Positions 36,680-45,010 of a stretch of DNA of 64,000 bases are shown here, piece by piece. The notes beneath the pieces were generated by a model. It searched no databases. It was not told where the DNA came from and saw only the letters and a list, made by a program, of their open reading frames with translations. Both the position numbers and the translations under genes were made by a program. Location of the stretch: NCBI GenBank assembly GCA_025963715.1, contig JAOQAG010000027.1, forward strand, positions 1 to 64,000. Reading direction: 5' to 3'. Source of the DNA: Bacteroidota bacterium (GTDB taxonomy: Bacteria; Bacteroidota; Bacteroidia; 2-12-FULL-35-15). Positions within the stretch are counted from its first letter, which is position 1. Every line of letters begins with the position of its first letter.

Positions 36680-36712
36680 TTTGGATTGTAACAAATTCAT
36701 GCGATATATTTG
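36680..36712 (+). promoter_or_regulatory. promoter of the sulfur-operon leader
   Basis: TTTG (36680-36683), 21 bp, TATATTTG (36705-36712) is a full match to the Bacteroidota promoter. Transcription would start near 36718, 14 nt before the first leader peptide. No second promoter is apparent between the two attenuators. Confidence 0.8.
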
Positions 36713-36731
36713 CAGCGCAATAATCGAAACA

Positions 36732-36803
36732 ATGAACAACAACGCAAAACATATTTTAAATACGATCAACAGCAACATGATGTGCTGCATGATGTGTATT
36801 TAA
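36732..36803 (+). CDS. Met/Cys-rich leader peptide 1
   Basis: This 23-residue peptide begins MNNNAKHILNT and ends with the run MMCCMMC at residues 16-22, then Ile and stop. Cys and Met are rare in proteins, so six of seven consecutive codons of this kind plus a neighbouring terminator mark a ribosome-mediated attenuator. Its stop (36801-36803) is 5 nt before the antiterminator arm GGAAAGCC (36808-36815). A ribosome finishing translation would cover that arm, while one stalled at the Met/Cys codons would leave it free. Confidence 0.85.
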   Translation: MNNNAKHILNTINSNMMCCMMCI

Positions 36804-36844
36804 TTATGGAAAGCCCGTTGAACCAACATATTTTAAACACATTT

Positions 36845-36880
36845 AAAAAAGGCTTTCCAAAACGGGAAGCCTTTTTTATT
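36845..36880 (+). terminator. attenuator terminator 1
   Basis: AAAAAAGGCTTTCC (36845-36858) pairs with GGGAAGCCTTTTTT (36864-36877), 14 pairs with one T-G and a 5-nt loop. The competing antiterminator is GGAAAGCC (36808-36815) with GGCTTTCC (36851-36858), a perfect 8-bp helix. Confidence 0.9.
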
Positions 36881-36956
36881 TTACAACAAATTCAATTTTA
36901 CAGCAATGACAATTAATAGCCTTTTGACTTTTTCTCTTTTAACTTTCAACTTTACA

Positions 36957-37025
36957 ATGTGTATGTGTTGTATGATGCACCCGCGAATGCGGAAGGACAA
37001 CACCATGCCTTATTGTAAAATATAA
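36957..37025 (+). CDS. Met/Cys-rich leader peptide 2
   Basis: This 22-residue peptide opens MCMCCMM and contains two further Met and one more Cys (8 of 22 residues are Met or Cys). Part of its own coding sequence, TGCGGAAGG (36988-36996), is the antiterminator arm and is complementary to CCTTCCGCA (37052-37060). A ribosome stalled in the first seven codons would stop just short of this arm; one reaching the stop at 37025 would mask it. Confidence 0.85.
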   Translation: MCMCCMMHPRMRKDNTMPYCKI

Positions 37026-37045
37026 AAACAATATAAGCAACATGT

Positions 37046-37080
37046 AAAAGCCCTTCCGCAATAACCGGAAGGGCTTTTTT
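37046..37080 (+). terminator. attenuator terminator 2
   Basis: AAAAGCCCTTCCG (37046-37058) pairs perfectly over 13 bp with 37066-37078 around a 7-nt loop and is followed by Ts. The competing helix is 36988-36996 with 37052-37060 (9 bp perfect). Confidence 0.92.
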
Positions 37081-37083
37081 TAT

Positions 37084-37170
37084 GGTCTTGTGGCCGAAGG
37101 GTTCAGGTACGGGTCTGCAAAACCTGATATAGCGGTTCGTTCCGATAGCTATCGGAACCGCTCGGGACCT
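37084..37170 (+). tRNA. tRNA-Cys (GCA)-like gene with interrupted T-loop
   Basis: The acceptor GGTCTTG (37084-37090) pairs with CGGGACC (37163-37169, two T-G pairs). The D-arm is GCC/GGT, and the anticodon arm CGGGT-CTGCAAA-ACCTG gives anticodon GCA (37117-37119). The variable loop has 4 nt and the T-stem is AGCGG/CCGCT. The discriminator is T (37170), the identity base of tRNA-Cys, and no CCA is encoded. The T-loop begins TTCG but is 22 nt instead of 7, because the palindrome GTTCCGATAGCTATCGGAAC (37139-37158) interrupts it. Without it the gene would be a normal 72-nt tRNA. It lies in the leader of the sulfur operon, same strand, 4 bp after terminator 2. It could be a broken tRNA gene, a tRNA with a tolerated insert, or a regulatory mimic. 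Confidence 0.75.
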
Positions 37171-37228
37171 CAAACCCTCCTATGCCAAGGCTTTGGAGGA
37201 TAAAAAACAAAAAATTTAAAAAATAAAA

Positions 37229-38104
37229 ATGGAAAAAATATACATAAGCGATTCAGGCCCTGAAGTATCAGCGGCGATCTATAGTTTCTGGAGATGGAAC
37301 ACAACAGCGCTTAGCACTGCAAAAAAAGTAGAAGACATTATCAATTACAACCTCGAACTGGGTGTGAATACATTTGATCACAGCGATCAATACGGCAATG
37401 GTAAGATCGAGGAATTGTTTGGAAAAGCCATCCAGGCCAAATCATTTAAGCGCGAAGATATTGTGATCTCATCTAAAAGTGGGATCCGCAATGCAGGTAA
37501 GGGAAATGTGGTCATCGATCATAGTGCAAAACACATCCGCCAATCGGTAGATGCATCCTTAAAAAAATTAAAAACCGATTACCTCGATATTTTTTTACTC
37601 GAAAATAACGACCCGCTTTTTAATGTGGAAGAAACTGCATCCGCACTGACGGAGCTGATCCTGAACGGAAAAATAAAATTCATCGGCGTTTCCAATTTCA
37701 ATGCATCGCAACACCGTTTACTGGCCTCACATCTTTCTCATCCCATTGTCACCAATCACATCGAATTAAGTTTATTGCAAACCACCGCTATTACCGATGG
37801 CCGACTGGATTTTATAAAGGAACAATACAGCAAACCCTTAGCATGGGCGCCGCTTGCAGGCGGAAGCATTTTAACAGGAAAAGAAAAAAAGGCAGTAAAA
37901 GTGAGAAAAGCGCTGCAGGAAATAAGTAAAAATTACACCGGCAATATAGAACAAACAGCTGTTGCATGGCTCTACAAACTGGGTGCATTACCCATCATCG
38001 GGAGCCCCGATAAAAAGCGCATCAAAAATGCGGCAAGCGCTTACGCGATTGACCTGACGCGTGAAGATTGGTATAAGTTGTACAACGCAACGATAAATAA
38101 GTAG
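37229..38104 (+). CDS. aldo/keto reductase family protein with His-to-Glu change
   Basis: The 291-residue (beta/alpha)8 protein has the YdhF-type aldo/keto reductase pattern. D50, Y55 (NTFDHSDQYGNGKIEELFGKAI) and K83 (VISSKSG) of the catalytic tetrad are present, but the usual His is Glu125 (DIFLLENNDPL, normally ..LLHRPDPL). C-terminal cofactor-binding blocks are LAWAPLAGGSILTG and GALPIIGSPDKKRIKNA. In mammalian AKR1D1 the same His-to-Glu change turns the enzyme into a carbon-carbon double-bond reductase; whether this applies here is unknown. It is the first gene after the attenuator leader, 125 bp beyond the tRNA-Cys anticodon region. Confidence 0.9.
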   Translation: MEKIYISDSGPEVSAAIYSFWRWNTTALSTAKKVEDIINYNLELGVNTFDHSDQYGNGKIEELFGKAIQAKSFKREDIVISSKSGIRNAGKGNVVIDHSAKHIRQSVDASLKKLKTDYLDIFLLENNDPLFNVEETASALTELILNGKIKFIGVSNFNASQHRLLASHLSHPIVTNHIELSLLQTTAITDGRLDFIKEQYSKPLAWAPLAGGSILTGKEKKAVKVRKALQEISKNYTGNIEQTAVAWLYKLGALPIIGSPDKKRIKNAASAYAIDLTREDWYKLYNATINK

Positions 38105-38404: not shown

Positions 38405-40495
38405 ATGAACAGCTTCCAAACAGAAATAGAAAATCCCCTCGTCGAAAAAGACATCATCGAGCTGGAGCAAAAGATCCGCGCTTTCCGCGAAGGAACGATC
38501 AACGAAGAAAAATTTCGTTCGCTGCGTTTGGCACGTGGCGTTTACGGGCAGCGCCAGCAAGGTGTGCAGATGGTGCGTATAAAATTGCCTTTCGGGAAGA
38601 TCAGCACCAAACAACTGTTACGCATTGCTGATATTTCAGATGAATATTCTAACGGAAACCTGCATTTAACAACACGCCAGGATGTGCAGATCCATTACGT
38701 GAGCCTCGATAAAACACCGGAATTGTGGGCCAAGCTGGAAGAAGATGACATTACCATCCGCGAAGCTTGCGGCAATACCGTACGCAATATTACAGCTTCC
38801 GCCGTTGCCGGGATCGACCCGAAAGAACCTTTTGATGTGTCACCGTATGCAGATGCATTGTTCCGTTATTTTTTGCGGAAACCATTCGGACAAGAGCTTG
38901 GCCGCAAATTAAAATTTGCTTTTTCATCCAATGATGACGATACCGCTTACACATTTATGCACGACATTGGATACATCCCGAAAGTAAAAATAGCAGGAGG
39001 TAAAATTATACGCGGCTTCAAGATCCTTATTGGTGGCGGATTAGGAGCGCAACCATTTTTAGCAAAAACAGCATTTGAATTTTTGGAAGAAGAGCAGATC
39101 ATTCCGTTTACGGAAGCTGTGATCCGCGTATTTGACCGCTATGGCGAGCGTACCAGTCGCCACAAAGCGCGCATTAAATATTTGGTGAATAAGATCGGGA
39201 TCGAACAATTGCTTTTATTGGTAGAAGAAGAGCGCCTGGCACTGACGGAAAAAACAGTAGCGATCAACCGTGATGCAGTAGCCAGCAAACCCAATTTGCA
39301 AAAGACTTCCTACACCACGTTTAAGATCAGCAATGATCCGCAGTACAAAAACTGGCTTGCAACCAATGTGTTCGAGCAAAAACAGCAAGGCTTTTACGGG
39401 GTGCACATTAAAATACAACTGGGAAATTTAAATTCAGAAACAGCCCGAAAGCTTGCCGCAATTGTAGATGCGTATGCAGCAGACGATATCCGTGTAACCA
39501 TTAACCAGGGCTTGTTACTAAAGTTTGTTCCCAAAGCGGCATTGCCGGTTTTATTCAAATCATTGAATCAGATAAACCTTGCTGCGCCTGGTTTTGACAG
39601 TGTTGTCGATATTACGGCTTGCCCCGGTACCGATACCTGTAACCTGGGAATCACCAGCAGCACCGGCATTGCAAAGGAACTGGAAAAAGTGGTAAAAGAG
39701 GAATATCCCGAATTGTTGTTTAACAACGATATTAAAATAAAGATCAGCGGTTGCATGAATTCCTGCGGACAGCATGCGTTGGCCCAAATTGGTTTTCACG
39801 GAAGTTCTTTTAAAAGCGGAACGGCAGTTATACCGGCATTGCAGCTTGTTTTAGGCGGTGGCGCTTTGGGAAACGGCGAAGGACGGATTGCTGATAAGAT
39901 CATTAAAATTCCAAGCAAACGCGGTCCGGATGTGTTGCGCACATTGCTCAATGATTTTGAAAACAATGCGGCAGAAGGCGAATATTTTAATAATTATTAC
40001 GATAAAAATGGTAAAGATTATTTTTATCAATTGTTAAAACCGCATGCCGATAATACCACGCTTACCGCAGATGAACACCTGGACTGGGGACATGCACAAA
40101 CCTTTAAAACCGAGATAGGAGTGGGCGAATGCGCCGGTGTGATGATCGACCTGGTGGCAACATTATTTTTTGAATCGGAAGAAAAAATTGATTGGGCGGA
40201 AAAAGCGATCGGCGAAAAATTAATTGCCGATAGTATTTATCACAGTTATTCAACTATTGTAAATACAGCGAAAGCTTTGTTATTAAATAAAAATATTCCA
40301 ACCAATACACAGCATGGGATCATCAGCGATTTTGACAAACATTTTGTAGAAACAAAGGAAATAAAAATACAGGGAACATTTAAAGATTTTGCGTTGCAGA
40401 TCAATCAGAATGAACCTTCGGAAGCTTTTGCAATCAGCTATTTAGAGGATGCAAAAACATTTTTACAACAAGTAAAACAATTCAGGAACGAATGA
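38405..40495 (+). CDS. assimilatory sulfite/nitrite reductase hemoprotein with C-terminal HEPN-like domain
   Basis: The 696-residue enzyme has two ferredoxin-like half domains and two siroheme/4Fe-4S domains. The iron-sulfur Cys motifs are TACPGTDTCNLGITSS (about 403-418) and SGCMNSCGQHALAQIGFHG (about 447-465). Context (siroheme genes, APS reductase) favours sulfite over nitrite. Residues about 560-696 form an extra domain with a helical HEPN pattern (IDWAEKAIGEKLIADSIYHSYSTIVNTAKALLL ... EAFAISYLEDAKTFLQQVKQF). No RxxxxH is seen, so RNase activity is unlikely. I have seen such fusions only in Bacteroidota. The stop overlaps a small reading frame by ATGA. Confidence 0.95.
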   Translation: MNSFQTEIENPLVEKDIIELEQKIRAFREGTINEEKFRSLRLARGVYGQRQQGVQMVRIKLPFGKISTKQLLRIADISDEYSNGNLHLTTRQDVQIHYVSLDKTPELWAKLEEDDITIREACGNTVRNITASAVAGIDPKEPFDVSPYADALFRYFLRKPFGQELGRKLKFAFSSNDDDTAYTFMHDIGYIPKVKIAGGKIIRGFKILIGGGLGAQPFLAKTAFEFLEEEQIIPFTEAVIRVFDRYGERTSRHKARIKYLVNKIGIEQLLLLVEEERLALTEKTVAINRDAVASKPNLQKTSYTTFKISNDPQYKNWLATNVFEQKQQGFYGVHIKIQLGNLNSETARKLAAIVDAYAADDIRVTINQGLLLKFVPKAALPVLFKSLNQINLAAPGFDSVVDITACPGTDTCNLGITSSTGIAKELEKVVKEEYPELLFNNDIKIKISGCMNSCGQHALAQIGFHGSSFKSGTAVIPALQLVLGGGALGNGEGRIADKIIKIPSKRGPDVLRTLLNDFENNAAEGEYFNNYYDKNGKDYFYQLLKPHADNTTLTADEHLDWGHAQTFKTEIGVGECAGVMIDLVATLFFESEEKIDWAEKAIGEKLIADSIYHSYSTIVNTAKALLLNKNIPTNTQHGIISDFDKHFVETKEIKIQGTFKDFALQINQNEPSEAFAISYLEDAKTFLQQVKQFRNE

Positions 40496-40659
40496 AAACA
40501 CAATTTAAAAACCATATAAAATTTGATACGTGTTGGTACGATAAATTTTTTAAAGTAAATAACCGACAACGAAATTATCAATCATCATCCCGTGATTTAA
40601 CCGCGAAAAATAATCCGGACACGGGAATAATAAAAACAGAAAAAAATGAAAACAAATAA
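40492..40659 (+). CDS. small overlapping reading frame of 55 codons
   Basis: The ATG overlaps the sulfite reductase stop (ATGA) and the TAA lies inside the start of the methyltransferase gene, so the frame bridges the two genes exactly. The peptide is basic and polar (KFDTCWYDKFFKVNNRQRN near the middle), with no recognisable domain. It could be a real small protein, a translational coupler, or chance. Its perfect fit with both neighbours is the only support. Confidence 0.3.
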   Translation: MKTQFKNHIKFDTCWYDKFFKVNNRQRNYQSSSRDLTAKNNPDTGIIKTEKNENK

Positions 40660-41416
40660 ATATCCAAAATTAACATTGGTAGGTGCTGGCCCCGGCGACG
40701 TTGACCTGATCACGGTAAAGGGCCTGAATGCAATTGCTTCCGCGGATGTGATCCTCTACGATGCATTGGTAAATCCCGAATTATTAAAATACGCAGCTGT
40801 AAATGCACGAAAAATTTACGTGGGAAAACGCAATAAAAATCACATTTATACACAGGATCAGATCAATGCATTGATCGTTGATTTTGCATTTTCTTATGGT
40901 CACGTAGTGCGTTTAAAAGGCGGTGATCCTTTTGTATTCGGGCGCGGGCAAGAAGAAATTGCTTATGCCGAATTGTTCAATATCGAAACCGCAGTAATTC
41001 CCGGATTGTCCAGTTCCATTGCTGTTCCGGCTTTATCTGGAATCCCGGTTACCAATCGCGGCACCAGCGAAAGTTTTTGGGTGATCACCGGTACCACCAG
41101 CAGCCGAAAATTATCAGATGATTTAAAACTGGCGGCGCAATCCACGGCAACGGTTGTTGTGTTGATGGGATTAAGTAAACTTGCCGAGATCACAGAAGTG
41201 TACAAATCTTCCGGAAAAGAAAATACCGCAATTGCGATCATCCAGAACGGATCGTTACCGAACGAAAGAAGCGTGCTGGGAACCATTGATACTATTGAAG
41301 AACTGGCTGCAGCCGAAAAAATAGCAGCTCCTGCAGTGATCGTGATCGGCGATGTGGTAAAGCTGCATCCTTTGTTTCCAGCCAGCTTAACCGATTGGAA
41401 ATATTTATTGAATTAG
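40646..41416 (+). CDS. cobA: uroporphyrinogen-III C-methyltransferase
   Basis: The enzyme adds two methyl groups from S-adenosylmethionine to uroporphyrinogen III, giving precorrin-2 for siroheme. Its 256 residues contain the signatures LVGAGPGDVDLITVKGLNAI (9-28), VRLKGGDPFVFGRGQEE (about 92-108), and VIPGLSSSIAVPALSGIPVTNRG. With the Met8-type enzyme at 42338 it makes the siroheme that the sulfite reductase needs. It is methyltransferase only, without the dehydrogenase half of E. coli CysG. It lies 150 bp after the reductase. Confidence 0.96.
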   Translation: MKTNKYPKLTLVGAGPGDVDLITVKGLNAIASADVILYDALVNPELLKYAAVNARKIYVGKRNKNHIYTQDQINALIVDFAFSYGHVVRLKGGDPFVFGRGQEEIAYAELFNIETAVIPGLSSSIAVPALSGIPVTNRGTSESFWVITGTTSSRKLSDDLKLAAQSTATVVVLMGLSKLAEITEVYKSSGKENTAIAIIQNGSLPNERSVLGTIDTIEELAAAEKIAAPAVIVIGDVVKLHPLFPASLTDWKYLLN

Positions 41417-41702: not shown

Positions 41703-42338
41703 ATGTCATTACGATTAGGCGACACTGCACCGGATTTTACCGCTGAAACAACAGAAGGAAAAATCGAATTTTACAACTGGCTGGGAAGCAGCTGGGGAAT
41801 TTTGTTTTCGCATCCTGCCGATTATACGCCGGTTTGCACTACCGAATTAGGTACCGTGGCAAAGCTGCAGGACGAATTCAAAAAACGCAATGTAAAAACC
41901 ATCGCGTTAAGTGTTGATCCTCTGGAATCACATTTCAGCTGGATCAAAGACATTAACGAAACGCAAAAAACGATTGTTAATTTTCCGATCATTGCCGATC
42001 CCGTTTTTGAAGTGGCAAAATTATACGACATGATCCATCCGAATGCATCGGATAAATTTACGGTACGTTCTGTATTTATTATCGGTACAGATAAAAAAGT
42101 AAAATTGATCCTGACGTATCCTGCTTCTACCGGGCGGAATTTTGATGAGATCCTGCGTGTGATCGATTCACTGCAACTAACCGCCAATTATAGCGTTGCA
42201 ACGCCTGCCAACTGGAAAGACGGCGACGATGTGGTAATTGCACCGACGATAAAAGACGAGGACATTGCAGCAAAATTTCCGAAAGGACACACGCGCATCA
42301 AGCCGTATTTACGCACAACACCGCAACCCAATAAATAA
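41703..42338 (+). CDS. peroxiredoxin, 1-Cys Prx6 type
   Basis: The 211-residue protein has the peroxidatic Cys in FSHPADYTPVCTTELG (about 36-51) and only that Cys in the protein, which together with length and the extended C-terminus indicates the 1-Cys Prx6 group. It removes peroxides, using an external thiol. The position inside the sulfur operon suggests protection during cysteine synthesis, whose products react with oxidants. The stop overlaps the next start by one base (TAATG), so it is translationally coupled to the siroheme gene. Confidence 0.95.
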   Translation: MSLRLGDTAPDFTAETTEGKIEFYNWLGSSWGILFSHPADYTPVCTTELGTVAKLQDEFKKRNVKTIALSVDPLESHFSWIKDINETQKTIVNFPIIADPVFEVAKLYDMIHPNASDKFTVRSVFIIGTDKKVKLILTYPASTGRNFDEILRVIDSLQLTANYSVATPANWKDGDDVVIAPTIKDEDIAAKFPKGHTRIKPYLRTTPQPNK

Positions 42339-42973
42339 TGCCGCTAGCAGATAACACACTGAAATCAATCATTACAGGCAACCAATTGTTTCCGGTATTC
42401 CTTAAATTAGAACATTTACATGTGCTGGTAATAGGTGGCGGAAACATTGGTTTGGAAAAAATTTCGGCACTGTTGAATGCAAATCCGGATGCAAAAATAA
42501 CAGTGGTCGCAAAAGCGGTATTGCCTGCTATTAAAGCATTTAAGGAAACATCAAAACAATTGATCATCATTGAAAAGGCGGTGGAAGAAACAGATTTGGA
42601 TGATAAAGATCTGATAATTGCAGCAACAGGAAACAGGCAAATAAGCGAATGGTTGCGAACAGAAGCAAGCAAACGAAAAATTCTGATCAACGTTGCGGAT
42701 ACGCCTGATCTTTGTGATTTTTATTTAGGCTCAATTGTCAAAAAAGGCGATTTAAAGATCGCGATCTCTACCAATGGAAAATCGCCTACGTTTGCAAAAC
42801 GCCTGAAAGAAGTGTTCAATGAAGCATTACCGGATGATCTGGAGGAATGTTTAAATAACCTGAATGCATTGCGGGAACAACTCAAAGGCGATTTTACAAA
42901 CAAAGTAAAGCAATTGAATGCCGCAACAGCCGTACTGATTGCCGAAAACGAAAAGGCGGCGAATAATTCGTAA
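42338..42973 (+). CDS. precorrin-2 dehydrogenase / sirohydrochlorin ferrochelatase (Met8-like)
   Basis: The 211-residue protein has a Rossmann loop VLVIGGGNIGLEKISALL at about 29-46. IAATGNRQISEWL, LINVADTPDLCDFYLGSIVKKGDLKIAISTNGKSPTFAKRLKE is the family block with the catalytic Asp (VADTPDLCDF). It oxidises precorrin-2 to sirohydrochlorin and may insert iron, finishing siroheme for the sulfite reductase. It is joined to the peroxiredoxin gene by a TAATG overlap and followed 56 bp later by the APS reductase gene. Confidence 0.95.
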   Translation: MPLADNTLKSIITGNQLFPVFLKLEHLHVLVIGGGNIGLEKISALLNANPDAKITVVAKAVLPAIKAFKETSKQLIIIEKAVEETDLDDKDLIIAATGNRQISEWLRTEASKRKILINVADTPDLCDFYLGSIVKKGDLKIAISTNGKSPTFAKRLKEVFNEALPDDLEECLNNLNALREQLKGDFTNKVKQLNAATAVLIAENEKAANNS

Positions 42974-43029: not shown

Positions 43030-43677
43030 ATGGATATAGAAGAGTTAAATAAAAAATACCGGGAATTAACACCGGAAGAGCGGATCAGGATGTTGTATAC
43101 CGATTTTAATTCGGTGTTATTTACGTCTTCTTTCGGCACTACGTCGGCTTTTTTATTACACCTGTTCAACAAAGTAAACCCGCAGCAAACTGTTTATTTT
43201 TTAGATACAACGTATCATTTTAATGAAACGCTGGCGTATAAAAATCAGCTGGCGGAATTGTTAAAATTAAATGTGATCGATATAAAACCGGAAGAGTGGA
43301 AAAATAATTTTACGCAACAGGACAAAACATGGAATTCGGATCCTGACTTGTGTTGCTCTATTAACAAGGTAGAGCCGCTGGATAAAATAAAACCGGGATT
43401 TCAGATCTGGGTTTCGGGATTGATGTCGTCGCAAAACGCATACCGCGAAAGTTTAAAAATATTTGAAGAAAAAGATGGGATCATTAAATTTTTTCCAATC
43501 GTTGATTTGTCGGAAAAAGATGCTTTTGATTACATTAAAAAAAATAATTTACCGGAGCATCCATTACTCAAAGCCGGTTATAATTCCGTTGGCTGTTTCC
43601 ACTGTACGGTTGCAGGAAAAGGCAGAAGCGGGCGCTGGATCAATAAATCAAAAACCGAATGCGGTTTGCATTTGTAG
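43030..43677 (+). CDS. cysH: adenylyl-sulfate (APS) reductase, CysH family
   Basis: The 215-residue protein reduces activated sulfate to sulfite with thioredoxin. It has SSFGTTSAFLLHLF (PP-loop-like start, about 36-49), a Cys pair DLCCSINKVEP (about 110-112), a CxxC GCFHCT (about 188-191) and the catalytic tail ECGLHL. The CC plus CxxC set is the 4Fe-4S signature of enzymes that use APS rather than PAPS, so no APS kinase step is needed. Its product goes to the sulfite reductase of the same operon. The sulfate adenylyltransferase genes cysD/cysN are not in the window. Confidence 0.95.
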   Translation: MDIEELNKKYRELTPEERIRMLYTDFNSVLFTSSFGTTSAFLLHLFNKVNPQQTVYFLDTTYHFNETLAYKNQLAELLKLNVIDIKPEEWKNNFTQQDKTWNSDPDLCCSINKVEPLDKIKPGFQIWVSGLMSSQNAYRESLKIFEEKDGIIKFFPIVDLSEKDAFDYIKKNNLPEHPLLKAGYNSVGCFHCTVAGKGRSGRWINKSKTECGLHL

Positions 43678-43804: not shown

Positions 43805-45010
43805 ATGGGAAATAAAAACATTACAATTGGTTTATTCGGTTTTGGCTGCGTTGGACAAGGTTTGTACGATGTGTTGAATCATTCGCAGGGATTAAAAGCC
43901 AACATCGAAAAGATCTGCGTGAAGGATAAAAATAAAAAACGAAAGATCGATTCCAGCTACTTTACATTTGATAAAGAAGAGATCCTGAAACGCGATAATC
44001 TCAATGTGATCGTGGAGCTGATCGATAATGCCGATGAGGCTTTCGCGATTGTAAAACAAGCAATGAACAACGGCGTGAGCGTGGTAACTGCCAACAAAAA
44101 AATGCTGGCCGAAAATTTCCGTGAGCTGTATGAATTACAAATAAAAAATAAAGTCGCGCTTATATATGAAGGCTCCGCAGGCGGCAGCATTCCCATCATC
44201 CGCAACCTCGAGGAATATTACGACAATGAATTATTAAGCAGCATAAAAGGAATTTTGAATGGCACCTGCAATTATATTTTAACCCGTATGGAGCTGGAAA
44301 ATAAAGAATACCAGGAAGTGTTGAAAGATGCACAGCTCAACGGTTTTGCCGAAAGCGACCCCTGGCTGGATGTGGCGGCATTCGATACAAAATTCAAAAC
44401 ATTGCTGCTCACCGTTCATGCGTTCGGGATCGTTTTAAATCCCGATGATATTTTTAATACGGGGATTCAGAATATCAGTTACGATGATATTTTATATGCA
44501 ACACAACGCGGCCTCCGCATCAAAATGCTGGCCGTATCACACAAGATCGGCGATAAATTCCGTGTGTACGCCATCCCACATTTTGTAGATAAAAACAGCG
44601 AGCTGTACAATGTGAATTATGAATACAATGCCGTGGAAGTAGAAGGTGCGTATTCCTGTAAGCAAACATTTGTTGGAAAAGGTGCAGGAAGCCATCCAAC
44701 AGGAAGCGCGGTGCTTTCCGACATTTCTGCACTAACCTATGATTATAAATACGGCTACAAAAAATTAAAAAAACTGATCAACGGAACAGGGAAAATAGAA
44801 GAAGGAAAAACACAGATAGAATACGATTTCCCGATCAAATTATACATCCGTTATCAAACGCGCGAGCAGCTCAACGATCTCGAAATAATATCTGTAGAAG
44901 AAGAATACAAATCAGCCAACACCAATTATATCATCGCCAACGTAAATTTTAATTCACTGTTTAACATTTACAACAAACGCGATAATAAATTATTTATCTG
45001 CGCAATATAA
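43805..45010 (+). CDS. hom: homoserine dehydrogenase
   Basis: The enzyme reduces aspartate semialdehyde to homoserine, the branch leading to methionine and threonine. The 401-residue protein has NAD(P)-binding GLFGFGCVGQGLYDVL at 9-24, VVTANKKMLAENF at about 96-108 and the catalytic block YEGSAGGSIPIIRNL and ILNGTCNYILTRME. FAESDPWLDVAAFDTKFK follows. The last ~80 residues may be an ACT-like feedback domain. It ends the sulfur gene group, giving a carbon skeleton for sulfur incorporation. This explains why the leader counts both Met and Cys codons, which is inference. Confidence 0.96.
   Translation: MGNKNITIGLFGFGCVGQGLYDVLNHSQGLKANIEKICVKDKNKKRKIDSSYFTFDKEEILKRDNLNVIVELIDNADEAFAIVKQAMNNGVSVVTANKKMLAENFRELYELQIKNKVALIYEGSAGGSIPIIRNLEEYYDNELLSSIKGILNGTCNYILTRMELENKEYQEVLKDAQLNGFAESDPWLDVAAFDTKFKTLLLTVHAFGIVLNPDDIFNTGIQNISYDDILYATQRGLRIKMLAVSHKIGDKFRVYAIPHFVDKNSELYNVNYEYNAVEVEGAYSCKQTFVGKGAGSHPTGSAVLSDISALTYDYKYGYKKLKKLINGTGKIEEGKTQIEYDFPIKLYIRYQTREQLNDLEIISVEEEYKSANTNYIIANVNFNSLFNIYNKRDNKLFICAI

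Follow-up and report, generated by a model that had tools for sequence, protein, structure and literature searches.

Is the sulfur-assimilation cluster of this Bacteroidota bacterium guarded by two leader-peptide attenuators in series and, if so, what would two such sensors read? Leader-peptide attenuation is textbook knowledge from Proteobacteria, and to our knowledge it has been little explored in Bacteroidota. The question is raised by the DNA ahead of the cluster in the window, by which we mean the whole 64,000-nucleotide stretch analysed here (contig JAOQAG010000027.1, positions 1 to 64,000); all features of the locus lie on its forward strand.

The tandem leader and the genes behind it

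A Bacteroidota-type promoter was identified at 36680-36712, with TTTG at 36680-36683 and TATATTTG at 36705-36712, and this layout, TTTG-N21-TATATTTG, fits the Bacteroidota promoter consensus. The initial annotation had placed a single promoter ahead of both units, which stands; its type is that of Bacteroidota, not sigma-70. Upstream of ORF 1, TATATTTG was found at constant spacing in 9/9 relatives checked, and TANNTTTG was absent from the stretch that separates terminator 1 from the core of ORF 2 (9/9 relatives checked), so that, judged by consensus, the polymerase must pass both terminators.

The first unit begins with leader ORF 1 (MNNNAKHILNTINSNMMCCMMCI and a stop codon, 36732-36803), which is kept in 15 loci of the genus and ends in MMCCMMC-I-stop (36777-36803). 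The Met/Cys run that had been annotated directly before the stop is present, but one extra residue, Ile, separates the two. In relatives ORF 1 has 23-24 residues and the C-terminal MMCCMMC or near variants of it. The putative antiterminator arm 1, GGAAAGCC (36808-36815), lies 5 nt past the stop at a position identical across all leader-1 copies, and can pair without mismatch over 8 bp with GGCTTTCC (36851-36858), which belongs to the 5' half of intrinsic terminator 1 (36845-36877 with its T-run; stem -19.8 kcal/mol), which is present in all tandem loci; a ninth pair is possible between 36807 and 36859.

The second unit is built differently around leader ORF 2 (MTINSLLTFSLLTFNFTMCMCCMMHPRMRKDNTMPYCKI and a stop codon, 36906-37025), the core of which, MCMCCMM, occupies 36957-36977 and had originally been read as the start of the peptide. 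This start was abandoned, since an ATGAYA motif lies in frame with the MCMCC core in 10/10 genomes and at five distances (42, 45, 51, 69, and 84 nt), indicating that insertions preserved the ORF 2 frame; ORF 2 most likely begins upstream of 36957, at the ATG at 36906 (MT...). Bacteroidota ribosomes mostly initiate without Shine-Dalgarno sequences. Core and tail of ORF 2 are kept in relatives, where the peptide combines the MT... start and the MCMCCMM core with a tail like LRMRK..MHYCK. The putative antiterminator arm 2, TGCGGAAGG (36988-36996), lies inside ORF 2, the stop of which follows 27 nt beyond the arm, and pairs exactly over 9 bp with CCTTCCGCA (37052-37060) in the 5' half of intrinsic terminator 2 (37046-37078 with its T-run; -20.6 kcal/mol), a conserved element found by scan. 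The positions first given for both arms and both terminators were reproduced in full. A hairpin at the ORF 2 stop (TATTGT/ACAATA) was also considered, and is not claimed here, as 53% of its cells were paired, no better than in slid controls.

The first gene after the leader in the window encodes an aldo/keto reductase (37229-38104; Pfam PF00248, 3.2e-49), as it does behind the tandem leader in G001 and G033, and in most relatives this first place is taken by the sulfite/nitrite-reductase haemoprotein, encoded here at 38405-40495 (PF01077, 4.4e-46, and PF03460). The latter protein shows a C-terminal HEPN domain match (residues 587-694; Pfam E 8.7e-05), an unusual fusion. The cluster continues with genes for a uroporphyrinogen-III C-methyltransferase for sirohaem (SUMT; 40646-41416; TIGR01469), a peroxiredoxin (41703-42338; NF009668), a sirohaem synthase N-terminal domain protein (CysG-N/Met8-like; 42338-42973; TIGR01470), the phosphoadenylyl-sulfate reductase CysH (43030-43677; NF002537), and a homoserine dehydrogenase serving a methionine precursor (43805-45010; NF004976), each of these models scoring over its cut-off. 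Some intergenic gaps in the cluster measure 150-300 nt, and we infer that one transcript is shared across it.

Between terminator 2 and the first gene we observed a tRNA-Cys-like sequence (37084-37171) with a GCA anticodon and a 7-bp acceptor stem, carrying in its T-loop the palindrome CCGATAGCTATCGG, of which the window genome holds 35 copies. Its Rfam tRNA score of 19.8 is below the cut-off of 29, ARAGORN makes no call for it, and a normal tRNA-Cys is encoded elsewhere in the genome (L006). As a part of the switch this element was set aside because it is absent from every relative examined.

Conservation of the frames, arms and terminators

A DNA search of relatives recovered the complete leader in many genomes of the same genus. 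The sulfite reductase gene is present in 14/36 genus genomes and the tandem leader lies just upstream of it in 11 of these 14, on a single contig in 10/11 (in G016 the two leaders sit on two contig ends); the tandem leader was not found in the 22/36 genomes without sulfite reductase. G008 and G031, both with sulfite reductase, have a different gene at the leader site, and G013 has a single Cys-Cys leader (SACCYS) with a terminator before an aldo/keto reductase. The pattern ATGTGYTGYATGATG gave 26 matches in the 36 genomes compared to 1 for its reversed control. L089 (G014) was discarded as a chance match. Both short frames, their Cys/Met codons and the arms, whose conservation in relatives had been proposed as a check, proved conserved within the genus when this check was run.

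The coding character of the leaders was assessed from substitution patterns. Codons 16-22 of ORF 1 show a dN/dS of about 0.08 among 15 copies, in which the Cys codons swap between TGC and TGT with Cys retained, and the whole-ORF ratios are modest (about 0.5), which is what one would expect of a sequence under additional constraint from RNA pairing. The conserved Met/Cys frames, the core dN/dS of 0.08 and the preservation of the frame argue that the leader ORFs are translated.

The pairing of the window leaders was compared with 300 dinucleotide shuffles. The arm-terminator duplex of leader 1 has an energy of -15.6 kcal/mol against -5.7+/-1.8 kcal/mol in shuffles, and that of leader 2 has -17.6 against -8.2+/-2.1 kcal/mol, so that both exceed all or nearly all of the 300 shuffles (p ~0.003), while whole-leader folding gave z = -5.8 for leader 1 and -3.4 for leader 2 against dinucleotide shuffles. 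When the sequence following the Met/Cys run was paired with the 5' half of the terminator, the best duplex in both leaders was the very arm named in the initial annotation, and a duplex at a fixed place recurs in about 60 Met/Cys leaders of several families. The 8-bp version of antiterminator 2 has 90% of its cells paired among 10 genomes compared to 43-59% when slid by 1-3 columns, and pair counts in these 10 genomes showed no two-sided changes; antiterminator 2 is hence argued from retention and from a constraint on the motif CCGC, not from covariation. In five genomes (G003, G011, G032, G006, and G017) the 3' arm of terminator 2 cannot pair with the CCGC of the 5' arm, yet CCGC is invariant (11/11), and the antiterminator arm retains GCGG, its partner. 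The CCGC of terminator 2 would thereby be kept only where the antiterminator needs it, which is the strongest argument that the arms matter.

Single ORFs of this length are common in any window, and the locus could in principle combine short ORFs and ordinary terminators by chance, with no regulatory function. This reading has a negligible probability, being refuted by the conservation in relatives, the shuffles, the controls and the recurrence of the arrangement. That only one attenuator functions in the window genome and the other is a relic of duplication fits with leader-1 copies standing alone elsewhere, so that the pair is not required, and with the two leaders being unlike in sequence and arm placement. 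However, the window leaders both have exact arms of 8-9 bp and strong terminators, both frames are constrained in 10 genomes, and other families too have tandem arrays, with arms unlike these, and we therefore regard a relic as quite improbable. Two complete predicted attenuators in series behind one promoter, as initially annotated, are confirmed as real and conserved by this comparative evidence.

The probable signal and the proposed switch

The proposed switch would operate as follows. Polymerase starting at the one promoter would pass terminator 1 and then terminator 2, while a ribosome translates the short peptide in each leader. If charged tRNA-Cys and/or tRNA-Met were scarce, the ribosome would stall on the Met/Cys run just before the antiterminator arm, the arm would capture the terminator's 5' half and the polymerase would read on, whereas with ample supply the ribosome would advance and cover the arm, or let it refold, and the terminator would form. 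With the same amino acids read in both leaders, expression should approximate the product of the two read-through fractions, and this multiplication would keep the basal level very low and make the response steeper than that of a single attenuator. The AND-like or graded logic would follow from the series terminators. The assignment of one gate to tRNA-Cys and one to tRNA-Met is not supported, as both leaders carry both codons. We consider it highly probable that transcription of the sulfur-assimilation cluster is governed by two serial attenuators of the ribosome-mediated kind, with stalling, signal and multiplicative logic as we infer them here.

Several features of the locus agree with attenuation: the Met/Cys codons correspond to the end products of the pathway, terminators stand between the ORFs and the genes, and pairing of the antiterminator arms would exclude the terminators. 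In a simple footprint model, a ribosome with its A site on any Met/Cys codon obstructs little or none of the arm, in leader 1 and leader 2 alike. With the ribosome at the ORF 1 stop, the arm's pairing probability, otherwise 1.0, drops to 0.002 or 0.61 according to which leading edge is assumed. In leader 2 the ribosome blocks arm 2 as it crosses codons 36984-37008 of ORF 2 and at the stop is already past it, the duplex lying at -37 to -44 relative to the stop, compared to 0 to +6 in leader 1 and about -10 to -38 in leaders of the Flavobacteriaceae type. Hence, it must be either transit timing or a refolded arm that turns leader 2 off. The arm spacing had been presented as fitting ribosome stalling, and this holds for the stalled state of both leaders, but the off state of leader 2 is less simple than had been implied. 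Equilibrium folding of the full-length leader always favours the terminator, so the switch must be kinetic.

The sensor might instead be an arrest caused by the nascent peptide, or an aptamer binding a metabolite, without codon-dependent stalling, and conservation of the ORF 2 tail (HYCK) besides the Met/Cys run could be read in this way. In contrast, no Rfam family was found in the leader at gathering score, nothing relevant appeared at E<=5, and the SAM riboswitch RF00162 in particular gave no match at gathering score or at E<=5; Phe_leader and Thr_leader scored far under their cut-offs, probably due to a terminator-like shape. Moreover, the peptides diverge outside the Met/Cys core, unrelated leaders share just the Met/Cys run, and TATTGT, which lies towards the end of ORF 2, is seen again in Flavobacteriaceae leaders but out of frame, pointing to a role in the RNA, which leaves arrest or an aptamer very improbable. 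The comparative evidence supports the Met/Cys codons as the sensed element, as the initial annotation had it.

Both attenuators may work and sense only cysteine supply, the Met codons serving spacing, slow decoding or RNA pairing, and we regard this as a tentative alternative with appreciable weight. Cys codons are present in every leader of the set, whereas several leaders have other residues in place of flanking Met (ORF 1 codon 16 is M/N/P, and ORF 2 codon 7 is M/N/E/C), and the genes of the cluster make sulfide, i.e., cysteine first. The leader of G013 (L147; ..LSACCYSVILY) has no Met run and lies with its terminator about 900-1070 nt upstream of sulfite reductase, which suggests that the relevant amino acid may be cysteine. 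On the other hand, the ATG codons 17, 20, and 21 of ORF 1 are invariant (15/15), although the search pattern favoured them, and the Flavobacteriaceae leaders ahead of metY, which is a methionine gene, have Met codons as often as Cys codons. Each leader would be a sensor of Cys and Met, possibly mainly of Cys, and not a gate for one amino acid alone.

Recurrence in Bacteroidota and relation to known systems

The window genome contains a third Met/Cys attenuator (MNTNNFHKTMNSCCTMMCCMMCCI) before cysC-cysD, and leaders of this cysC type have a different arm and terminator pair that again match. In relatives, single leader-1 copies were found before a membrane-protein gene, aldo/keto reductase, homoserine dehydrogenase and cysH, the copy before homoserine dehydrogenase in G029 (L022) being a single one of its own; leader copies before such various genes indicate that the unit behaves as a movable cassette of sulfur genes.

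A Met/Cys pattern was scanned over 84,980 species genomes and the matches were then read. Tandem Met/Cys attenuators were found before metY in Kordia (4 genomes), Salinimicrobium (3), several Flavobacterium-like genomes and one of Saprospiraceae, and Flavobacterium sp. SUN046 has one ahead of a gene resembling cysH; metY and cysH were assigned in these scan records from their sequences. The arms of these leaders (CGCAGAGG; CCAAAAG/TATTACC) differ from those of the window and from one another, and the tandem metY leaders likewise carry other terminators. The phylum count of 61 versus 1 overstates the real number, as many distant matches are due to chance or have no attenuator parts. Rejected on these grounds were most matches in distant Bacteroidota families (L107-L110 and L122-L135) and in non-Bacteroidota records, the chance matches lying within genes. 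Four Flavobacteriaceae loci (L113, L117, L118, and L119) have another short MCCMM leader (MKNYSRNIMTSFPCSFAMCCMMNYVLKWR) with terminator AGCCTTTCATTGCACCATGAAAGGCT; the large gene that follows begins MSSEIIKHNPFQSMIDRFNIAADIL and looks like one for a glutamate-dehydrogenase-type protein.

For metY, one genome per genus of Flavobacteriaceae was sampled, leaders not being used for selection, and 30 loci were read. A SAM-I riboswitch lies directly upstream of metY in 23/30, Met/Cys attenuators are present in tandem in four (L157, L165, L170, and L171) and singly in one (L178), those of L170 and L178 being judged by eye, and two loci (L161 and L163) have neither. SAM-I and a Met/Cys attenuator occurred together at 0/30 loci, with a probability of about 1.5e-4 under independence, and the opposite-strand control gave attenuator units in 0/30. 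At metY, Met/Cys attenuators thus replace the SAM-I riboswitch in Flavobacteriaceae. The window genome itself has one SAM-I riboswitch (G000:C35:88167-88314; L180), and the next long ORF downstream of it is methyltransferase-like.

It is likely, in our view, that these leaders form an undescribed Bacteroidota system of Met/Cys attenuators, often arranged as two same-signal gates in series that multiply read-through for tight and steep control of genes for sulfur amino acids, and exchanging with SAM-I ahead of one and the same gene. A recurrent double gate of this kind poses the question of why two like sensors are placed in series, whether for leak control, a steeper response or timing, and this is directly testable because related leaders occur in nature with one gate as well as with two. 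At metY, the exchange with SAM-I amounts to a natural experiment in which one pathway is sensed either by tRNA charge or by a metabolite.

The window leaders resemble the trp, his, ilv, and thr attenuators in combining a leader ORF with product codons, an intrinsic terminator, a competing antiterminator arm and pathway genes downstream. Unlike that type, two complete units stand in series, the codons are Cys and Met, the host belongs to Bacteroidota, and the arm of leader 2 is internal to its ORF, with the stop well beyond it. Further, trp shows superattenuation, whereas in our folding model the arm is free when no ribosome is present, which would give antitermination by default. The SAM-I (S-box) riboswitch (RF00162) serves the same pathway and, in most Flavobacteriaceae, sits at the corresponding position ahead of metY, but its aptamer senses SAM directly with no leader peptide, and the window leader has no SAM aptamer. 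Leader peptides with a run of Cys codons were predicted for cys operons of Actinobacteria, with no terminators or antiterminators found (PMC1262725); these share a short Cys-run ORF before sulfur genes with the window leader, but are single and have no reported Met codons, while terminators and arms are present here. In the same phylum, leader-peptide attenuators before amino-acid operons were proposed from a transcriptome map of F. psychrophilum, the parts of that report available to us describing no tandem arrangement or Met/Cys leader (PMC9723704).

The B. clausii metE tandem riboswitches likewise place two terminators in series. A published case of tandem leader-ORF attenuators is the mgtCBR leader of Salmonella (mgtM and mgtP), which reads two signals, ATP and proline, additively and, by the contrast drawn there with metE, is without two intrinsic terminators (PMC3641672). 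The two systems are alike in having two short leader ORFs as separate switches on one transcript ahead of an operon, but the signals of mgtCBR differ from each other, whereas the window ORFs both carry the same Met and Cys codons, each with its own intrinsic terminator. The initial view that the arrangement is undescribed therefore has to be narrowed to gates of like signal with two intrinsic terminators. In the open-access literature we found no description of two intrinsic-terminator gates reading the same amino acids, nor of Met/Cys or same-signal tandem attenuators in Bacteroidota. In conclusion, leader-peptide attenuation and tandem leader ORFs are already known, while the same-signal, two-terminator Met/Cys version appears to be new.
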